Shown: positions 27,373-33,722 of the stretch, piece after piece | Position numbering within the stretch: position 1 is the first letter of the stretch | Layout of the letters: every line of letters begins with the position of its first letter | Position numbers and translations under genes: made by a program | Assembly: GCA_001875425.1 (NCBI GenBank) | Contig: MIYU01000020.1 | Span: forward strand, 1 to 43,732 | Source: Marine Group III euryarchaeote CG-Bathy1 | GTDB lineage: Archaea; Thermoplasmatota; Poseidoniia; MGIII; CG-Epi1 | DNA length: 43,732 nucleotides | Direction: 5' to 3' | The notes under the pieces: model-generated | Told to the model about the DNA's origin: nothing | Databases searched by the model: none | The model's input: only the letters and a program-made list of their open reading frames with translations

Positions 27373-28295
27373 GCGACCACCTTTAACTCGGAATCAAATA
27401 TCTGGCCATTGGCTGCAGCAACCAGAGATTCGGCGCGATATGATGAACGGACCATTGGTCCAGAGGCAATCGCCCTGAAACCCATCTCCTTGGCAATATT
27501 AGCCAAATTATCGAAACTTTCCGGCTTGGGAAAGGAGACTACTGGAAGATAACCTGGGCCCGGTGCCAGATATTGTCCTAAGGTCAGGAGATCAACCTTA
27601 GCATTTCTCAGTTCACTAAATGTCTCGATAATATCATCTTCAGTCTCACCCAAACCCAGCATAATACTGGATTTCGTCATTATATCTGGTCTAAGTTCCT
27701 TGGCTTTTTGCAGAATCAGTATACTCTGCTCGAAAGTTGCTCTTGGATCACGGACTCTAGGGGTCAGTCTTCTGACCGTCTCGACATTGTGGGCAAAGAC
27801 CTGAAGAGGTGCATTATCCAAAAGAGATTTCAAAGCTTTGAGATTACCGCTCAGATCACTACACAAAAGTTCCAATCCAACTCCAGGAAGTCTTTGATGA
27901 ACGGCATCCAGACACTGCCTGTAGTGGGACGCTCCACCATCTTGCATGTCATCACGATTGACCACCGTGATAACTGCATAGGTGAGGCCCATGGATTCTA
28001 TAGCATCTGCCAGATTTTCCGGTTCATCCTGATCCGGAGGAGGGGGATTGCGAATAGTATCCACTGCACAAAAACGGCAGCCACGGGTACAGGCCTTGCC
28101 TGCAATCATGAAAGTGGCAGTTCCACGGCTCCAGCAATCATGTATATTGGGACAGTGGGCTTCTTCACAAACAGTGTGTAATTGATTGCCTTTTACAGAA
28201 GCTGTAGTGGACTTGTAGCGCTCCATGTCATCGCCAGACGGCAAGGTTACTCTGAACCATTCCGGCAAGCGATCAGGTCTATCGTTTGCGAGCAC
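27369..28295 (-). CDS. lipA: Lipoyl synthase LipA
   Basis: LipA is a radical SAM enzyme that inserts two sulfur atoms into protein-bound octanoyl to make lipoyl. Both [4Fe-4S] clusters can be assigned: the auxiliary cluster cysteines C43, C48 and C54 (CX4CX5C) and the radical SAM cysteines C69, C73 and C76 (CX3CX2C). The 308-residue length is usual. The conserved RSSY motif near the C-terminus is present as VRSSYRAES. It is the first gene of the operon, with a GTG start about 22-32 nt from a TATA-like box read leftwards at 28317-28327. Confidence 0.94.
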   Translation of the reverse strand: MLANDRPDRLPEWFRVTLPSGDDMERYKSTTASVKGNQLHTVCEEAHCPNIHDCWSRGTATFMIAGKACTRGCRFCAVDTIRNPPPPDQDEPENLADAIESMGLTYAVITVVNRDDMQDGGASHYRQCLDAVHQRLPGVGLELLCSDLSGNLKALKSLLDNAPLQVFAHNVETVRRLTPRVRDPRATFEQSILILQKAKELRPDIMTKSSIMLGLGETEDDIIETFSELRNAKVDLLTLGQYLAPGPGYLPVVSFPKPESFDNLANIAKEMGFRAIASGPMVRSSYRAESLVAAANGQIFDSELKVVA

Positions 28296-28337: not shown

Positions 28338-28348
28338 GAAATTATTTT
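28338..28348 (+). promoter_or_regulatory. TATA-like box before the candidate sRNA
   Basis: GAAATTATTTT lies about 22-32 nt before the terminal stem of the candidate C/D-box RNA at 28370. It is divergent from the lipA promoter. Confidence 0.35.
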
Positions 28349-28369
28349 TCCACCACCCGATAGGGGTCC

Positions 28370-28433
28370 GCCCCTGTGATGTAATATGTGGCTGAGCTTT
28401 ACGCGTTGAAGAGCCCTATGAGTGCTGAGGGGC
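28370..28433 (+). ncRNA. Candidate C/D-box guide sRNA
   Basis: Elements occur in the right order for an archaeal C/D-box RNA that guides 2'-O-methylation. There is a terminal stem GCCCC (28370-28374), box C GTGATGT (28376-28382, consensus RTGATGA), box D' CTGA (28392-28395), a weak box C' TTGAAGA (28406-28412), a 12-nt guide GCCCTATGAGTG (28413-28424), box D CTGA (28425-28428) and stem GGGGC (28429-28433). The 64-nt length and 12-nt C'-D spacing are typical. The last base of C and two of C' deviate. CCCC can alternatively pair with AGGGG at 28362-28366. No target was identified. It lies in a 191-bp gap with no protein gene. Confidence 0.5.
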
Positions 28434-28486: not shown

Positions 28487-28978
28487 ATGTCCACTCTAAA
28501 TCACAAAGCTTATGCTGTTAGGCAGAAAGAAATTGATTACAAAACAACTGATCTGGTTATGATGCAAGCTCAATTGATCAACCGAAATCCAGAAGGAAAT
28601 GTAATGGTTGAAAAAGTTTCCAAAGATGCAGGGACATATTCGGCTGGAAAATACTATATTCCTGGAGTAGCAATGAAATTTGGTGAGCATCCTGAAGAGG
28701 CTGGTCATCGCGTTCTTACGGAAGAATTAGAAATTGCTGATAGGGAGATAGTTCTAGTAGGTACACAGTCTCACTGGAATGACGAAAAGAATCATTGGTA
28801 TCTATTATATCTTTTTGAAACCGTTGAACCTATCAGCCAAGAAGAAATGGATAATCCCTGTGAAGGAATTGATGAATTGCTTTACTTGAATTTGGAAGAT
28901 GCTACAGCTGAAAATTCAACACAAGGTCTTCGAGATATCCGGGAAGCTATGAAAGTTCCTGGTAAAACATACATTTAG
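28487..28978 (+). CDS. NUDIX-like hydrolase
   Basis: The 163-residue protein has the size and strand pattern of a NUDIX hydrolase, which cleaves nucleoside diphosphates linked to another group. A degenerate NUDIX box is visible around KFGEHPEEAGHRVLTEELEI: the E-x7-R spacing and the EEL end are kept, but the REUxEE core reads RVLTEE and the leading glycine is shifted. Activity is therefore uncertain. The ATG at 28487 is preferred over an in-frame GTG at 28457, because that codon lies directly before a strong TATATAAT box. The gene begins an AT-richer accessory stretch running to about 31.8 kb. Confidence 0.6.
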   Translation: MSTLNHKAYAVRQKEIDYKTTDLVMMQAQLINRNPEGNVMVEKVSKDAGTYSAGKYYIPGVAMKFGEHPEEAGHRVLTEELEIADREIVLVGTQSHWNDEKNHWYLLYLFETVEPISQEEMDNPCEGIDELLYLNLEDATAENSTQGLRDIREAMKVPGKTYI

Positions 28979-31862: not shown

Positions 31863-33722
31863 CTATTCAATCAGATTGATATACGGTTTGGTGAACAATT
31901 CCCACTCATTACTCTCAGAGTCGAAACGGGAGTTAACGAATACTCGCCATTTGGAATCATCCAAATCTGGGAAATCACTGCGATAATAGTATCCTGGCCA
32001 ACGCGTTTCCTCCCGATGCAGCAAGTGCCGCATGTGAGATTCACCAACCCAAGTACGGTGGACAACTTCCCAGCATCTCATCAGTTCATGGCGGTCCCGT
32101 GCTGCCAATTTATTCAAATCCTCACGTAATAGTTCAATCAGCTGGATACCTCGCTCCAGAGTCGGTTTATTGGTAGTGTACCAGGCTGAGGTCCCTCCAG
32201 CATACTCGTCCATTATCTTCTGCAAACGTACCAGTCCCTGATAAGGGGTCAAATAATGAGGATTTACCTCTTCAGCGGTCGAAGCTCCCTTATGTTTTTC
32301 AAATCTTTCCAGTGGTGCCCATATCTTATCACGAAGGGAGGCGACCTGCCCGTCATTGAGGGTTGAGTCCTCAGGATTATCATTCAGGAAATTAACGGCT
32401 GCTTTGGCCGCCAGACGGCCTTCAGTGAATGAACCAGATGAAAACTTGTGAGGAGCTGCTCCAACTCCGTCACCAGCTGCAAAAAGGCCTTTGATGGTGG
32501 TCATCTTGTTGTAGCCCCAGAAGTAGTCGGAAGGTGCCAAATCTTCCGGTCCACTGACCCAGGCTCCGGATTCACCAGAGTGAGAACCCATGATGTAGGG
32601 CTCAGCCAATACGACCTCGGAAGGTGTCAATTCAGGCCGGATATCTTGGGAGGCCCACGTAAGTGCCTGAGATATTGTCATGTCAAGGAAATCCTCCCAT
32701 GCTTCCTCTTGGACTTTTCTCATCTTTTTGGGATCGCCCCCTGCAATCTTCTGCATTGCCTTGTCAGTTCCCATATACATTGGCCCAAGACCATCCTTGA
32801 TGTCCAGAAACATCTGGTGATTGCGGAGAGGTGTGGGTGTCGGCACAACTAGACCATAGGGTTTGTACTTGTGCAATTCAGCCTCCCTAGTAACTGTGTA
32901 GTCTTCTCCTTTAGAATTCGTAATTTTGGCACCAAAATACTGGAACCACATGCCTACCGGGCCATAACCATCCTTGAAACGGGTCGGGACAAAACGATGT
33001 TCCATCTGGGTCATTTCGGTCCCGATTGGAATCATAAGCCCATAAGCGGCCCCGGTAGCAAACACGGAGTACCAAGTGCGTCCCATTCCCTCATTAATCG
33101 AACGTGGCCGGAAAACATTGGATGCTCCGCCACAAGTAATCAAAACCGCCTTGGCCTTGAAAACGTAAAATTTATTCTCCCTTACGCCAAACCCAATCGC
33201 TCCTGCAATACGTTGTGGATCATTAGCATCGGTCAGTAAATGAGTGATATTGACCCGCTCATAGATGTTCTCCTGTCCTATAGCTTTCCGGGCAGGTTCG
33301 GCAGTGATAGGTTTAATCGACTCTCCATGGATCGGAATCTGCCAACGACCGATACGTTCGTAGTCACCGTTGTCCTTCTTCCAGATTGGAAGGCCCCATT
33401 CTTCCAGTAAATGTACTGAGGAGTCGACATGACGGCCCACATCATAGACCAAGTCCTCCCGGGCCAGACCCATCATATCATTGACAACATACTTGACAAA
33501 GTCCTCGGGTGTATTCCATCCATATCGCTGGCCCATGTAGCAATTGATAGCGGAAAGACCCTCTCCAGTAGCTCCACTCCTCTCAATCACAGCCTTCTCG
33601 ACCATAACCACATTCATGTCACCACTCCAGTATTTTGATTCGAAAGCGGCTCCACAGCCGGACATTCCTCCTCCAATAATCAGGAGGTCACATTCTATGG
33701 TTTCAGTGTTTGGTAATGACAT
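31863..33722 (-). CDS. aprA: Adenylylsulfate reductase alpha subunit (AprA)
   Basis: AprA is the FAD subunit that interconverts adenosine phosphosulfate with sulfite plus AMP. The 619-residue length is typical. Signatures are the FAD motif GGGMSGCGAA (~17-26), the EMTQMEHRFVPTRFKDGYG block that includes the substrate-side Arg region, GGASNVFRP, and PHKFSSGSFTEGR with the active-site histidine. It follows aprB after 11 nt on the same strand. No sat, dsr, qmo or aprM gene is visible in the window, so the direction of the reaction and the electron partner are unknown. Confidence 0.92.
   Translation of the reverse strand: MSLPNTETIECDLLIIGGGMSGCGAAFESKYWSGDMNVVMVEKAVIERSGATGEGLSAINCYMGQRYGWNTPEDFVKYVVNDMMGLAREDLVYDVGRHVDSSVHLLEEWGLPIWKKDNGDYERIGRWQIPIHGESIKPITAEPARKAIGQENIYERVNITHLLTDANDPQRIAGAIGFGVRENKFYVFKAKAVLITCGGASNVFRPRSINEGMGRTWYSVFATGAAYGLMIPIGTEMTQMEHRFVPTRFKDGYGPVGMWFQYFGAKITNSKGEDYTVTREAELHKYKPYGLVVPTPTPLRNHQMFLDIKDGLGPMYMGTDKAMQKIAGGDPKKMRKVQEEAWEDFLDMTISQALTWASQDIRPELTPSEVVLAEPYIMGSHSGESGAWVSGPEDLAPSDYFWGYNKMTTIKGLFAAGDGVGAAPHKFSSGSFTEGRLAAKAAVNFLNDNPEDSTLNDGQVASLRDKIWAPLERFEKHKGASTAEEVNPHYLTPYQGLVRLQKIMDEYAGGTSAWYTTNKPTLERGIQLIELLREDLNKLAARDRHELMRCWEVVHRTWVGESHMRHLLHREETRWPGYYYRSDFPDLDDSKWRVFVNSRFDSESNEWELFTKPYINLIE

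Follow-up and report, generated by a model that had tools for sequence, protein, structure and literature searches.

A candidate sR-tMet-type C/D-box guide RNA in marine archaea, with complementarity to the elongator tRNA-Met precursor

The 2′-O-methylation of C34 in tRNA-Met (Cm34) is carried out by C/D RNPs in Archaea (PMC6601510) and, in Haloarchaea, has been attributed to the guide RNA sR-tMet (PMC4033218), which was described from Haloferax volcanii (Joardar et al. 2011, as cited in PMC4033218 and PMC6601510). From Pyrococcus, too, a C/D sRNA directed at tRNA-Met has been reported (PMC7994747). Here, a 64-nt C/D-box-like element was analyzed in a contig of the Marine Group III euryarchaeote CG-Bathy1, the window being the entire stretch of 43,732 nucleotides. 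At curated cut-offs, Rfam recognized only a tRNA in the window. At a looser threshold, the top two matches were both archaeal C/D RNAs, each scoring below its cut-off: sR41 (RF01126; E 4e-7, 34.6 bits, cut-off 54) and sR-tMet (RF02163; E 0.0013, 27.4 bits, cut-off 50), the latter match being identical over GAGCCCUAUGAGUGC.

The features of the element, as read directly from the sequence, are collected in the table. Boxes C, D′, C′, and D follow one another in the order of an archaeal C/D-box sRNA and are enclosed by a terminal stem. The boxes, the stem, the 12-nt spacing, the total length, and the TATA-like box were all found as the initial annotation had described them, as was the position of the element between lipA (minus strand, start at 28295) and a NUDIX-like ORF (plus strand, ATG at 28487). 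The reported irregularities of boxes C and C′ are likewise present in the window copy, namely departures from consensus by one or two letters, with box C ending in T rather than A. The TATA-like motif occupies the same position in same-family copies. An alternative fold, in which an upstream AGGGG would pair with the CCCC of the stem, is possible in the window; however, some same-family copies, such as L007 and L009, have no upstream AGGGG, and this motif also lies 5′ of the expected transcript start. A reading of the element as the leader of the NUDIX-like gene was rejected, since in relatives the NUDIX neighbor does not stay beside the RNA. Elsewhere in the window, a long minus-strand ORF (31863-33722) encodes a translation that, by eye, resembles the alpha subunit of adenylylsulfate reductase or a similar flavoprotein.

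Coordinates of the C/D-box element and associated features in the window
Feature	Position	Strand	Basis or remark
C/D-box guide RNA, sR-tMet type (most likely)	28370..28433	+	sequence, conservation, covariance model, Rfam matches
TATA-like promoter element (putative), AAATTATTTTT	28339..28349	+	~20-30 nt 5′ of the RNA
Terminal stem, 5′ side, GCCCC	28370..28374	+	covariation
Box C, GTGATGT	28376..28382	+	sequence, alignment
Box D′, CTGA	28392..28395	+	sequence, alignment
Box C′, TTGAAGA	28406..28412	+	sequence, alignment
12-nt D guide, GCCCTATGAGTG	28413..28424	+	complementary to ACTCATA|GGG of pre-tRNA-Met
Box D, CTGA	28425..28428	+	sequence, alignment
Terminal stem, 3′ side, GGGGC	28429..28433	+	covariation

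Conservation of the element extends well beyond the family of the source organism. In BLAST comparisons with 99 relatives, the whole stretch aligned at 75-83% in seven same-family genomes, and its 3′ part aligned in other families. A covariance model (R1), built from 19 copies in relatives and run on 244 genomes of the class, found matches at E <= 0.1 in 197 of them, most at far lower E values and a few too weak to be taken as confident (G031, G034, and G189). These matches span 24 of 25 genera, nearly always with one copy per genome. Given the same-family alignments and the breadth of the R1 matches, the element is more than a chance arrangement of boxes: it is a real small RNA gene common to most relatives. 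The terminal stem covaries as well. In the 19-copy alignment, three of the five pairs show changes on both sides, and all cells are paired; in a 54-copy alignment, which was fitted to the model and therefore leans towards its structure, four of the five pairs change on both sides, with 41 both-sides-changed cells compared with 12.9 on average after shuffling, and slid controls leave 30-49% of cells paired. The stem covariation for which the initial annotation had suggested looking is present in relatives. Some copies (L010, L012, and L014-L016), read by eye, combine an ATGACGA box C with a CCGA box D, as though C-C had taken the place of the kink-turn U-U pair.

The predicted target was read from relatives, since the genome of the source organism has no assembled elongator tRNA-Met: the searches made here did not find this gene in its ~79% complete assembly. 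The best guide-target pattern matches in that genome are not tRNAs, and the one tRNA-Met-like BLAST match above noise proved to cover the 3′ end of a different tRNA, located at the edge of a contig. In relatives, the ~12-nt guide beside box D shows 10 bp of complementarity to the precursor of elongator tRNA-Met, spanning its exon-intron border (ACTCATA|GGG). Guide positions 2-11 from box D correspond to A31-A37 and the first three bases of the intron, which places C34 fifth from box D, the position expected for Cm34 and the target known for sR-tMet. A pattern search identified intron-containing tRNA-Met(CAT) genes with this sequence in six same-family genomes, and the same ten letters occur in 27 further genomes from other families; the intron begins with GGG in all 33 sRNA-bearing genomes in which that tRNA was read. 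Guide position 1 is mismatched to G30 in every tRNA read, and two copies (L021 and L124) have further mismatches adjoining box D. Methylation of Cm56 in the T loop was also considered as a target and dropped, because it is not compatible with the guide's invariant CCC.

Together, these results support the C/D guide RNA reading of the initial annotation, and they add a predicted tRNA-Met target that it had not named. The element is very probably a C/D-box sRNA of the sR-tMet/sR41 type that is present in a single copy and whose D guide would direct 2′-O-methylation of C34 in elongator tRNA-Met before splicing. In the proposed mechanism, the sRNA would be transcribed and would assemble with the archaeal C/D proteins, the D guide would pair with A31-A37 and the adjoining three intron bases, and the wobble base C34, held fifth from box D, would be 2′-O-methylated; this modification would precede splicing of tRNA-Met.

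It is improbable that rRNA or another RNA is the main target, with the tRNA-Met match being secondary. While rRNA is the target of most archaeal C/D sRNAs (PMC7994747), and the D′ guide of the element varies among copies, the initial annotation's proposal to look for CACTCATAGGGC in rRNAs and tRNAs yielded the 10-bp match in pre-tRNA-Met of relatives but no convincing conserved site in the 16S and 23S sequences or in the tRNAs of the source genome that were scanned, and the conserved guide matches tRNA-Met where the known sR-tMet does. Still less probable is a role in splicing control instead of methylation guidance, with the conserved RNA either binding L7Ae or pairing with pre-tRNA-Met: by the authors' reading of the sequence, the nucleotides covered by the guide are those of the prospective splice-site helix, which should make pairing and splicing mutually exclusive, but the box order, the 12-nt guide, and the placement of C34 at the fifth position are requirements of methylation guides.

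For the methylation guide favored here, the distribution of the sRNA can be compared with the start of the tRNA-Met intron. A laxer model search detected no sRNA in the 23 genomes lacking a confident one, and tRNA-Met of this type was read by ARAGORN in 16 of these. Four, all from one genus, have no intron; seven, from two genera (G031 and G046; G032, G041, G065, G095, and G189), have an intron starting with GGA; and five have an intron starting with GGG and no detected sRNA. The absence of the sRNA from the latter five likely reflects gaps, since their congeners carry it. In two genera of different families, both without a confident sRNA, the tRNA-Met introns begin with GGAC. The lineages with a changed intron account for no more than three independent events, and their assemblies are incomplete; the link between loss of the guide and loss of the intron or a GGA start is therefore suggestive. 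By the authors' own reading, GGA would pair better with the 3′ end of the intron in the splice motif. A tentative hypothesis, held at somewhat less than even confidence, is that the guide RNA holds the intron start at GGG and that, after loss of the sRNA, either the intron disappears or G at its third position gives way to A, a change that would favor the splice-site helix; guide pairing and splicing would thus make opposing demands on the same bases.

This guide type is already known from other archaea, and the present RNA is most likely an sR-tMet-type guide; no earlier description of such a guide in this class was found in the literature searched. The results add an abundant class of marine archaea to the range of the sR-tMet guide type; within that class, lineages that have the guide and lineages that lack it offer a natural comparison for why tRNA-Met introns persist. 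The element resembles the sR-tMet of Haloferax volcanii (RF02163) in its guide letters, its box order, and its predicted target and position, namely Cm34 of an intron-containing elongator tRNA-Met, but it has a shorter D′-C′ part and belongs to a different class of archaea. It shares with sR41 (RF01126) a near-identical C′-guide-D stretch (UGAAGAGCCCUAUGAG..CUGA), although in one of two scans the match was limited to this C′-guide-D half. Human SNORD97 and SCARNA97 likewise guide Cm34 of elongator tRNA-Met (PMC6601510), but these are eukaryotic RNAs whose target has no intron.
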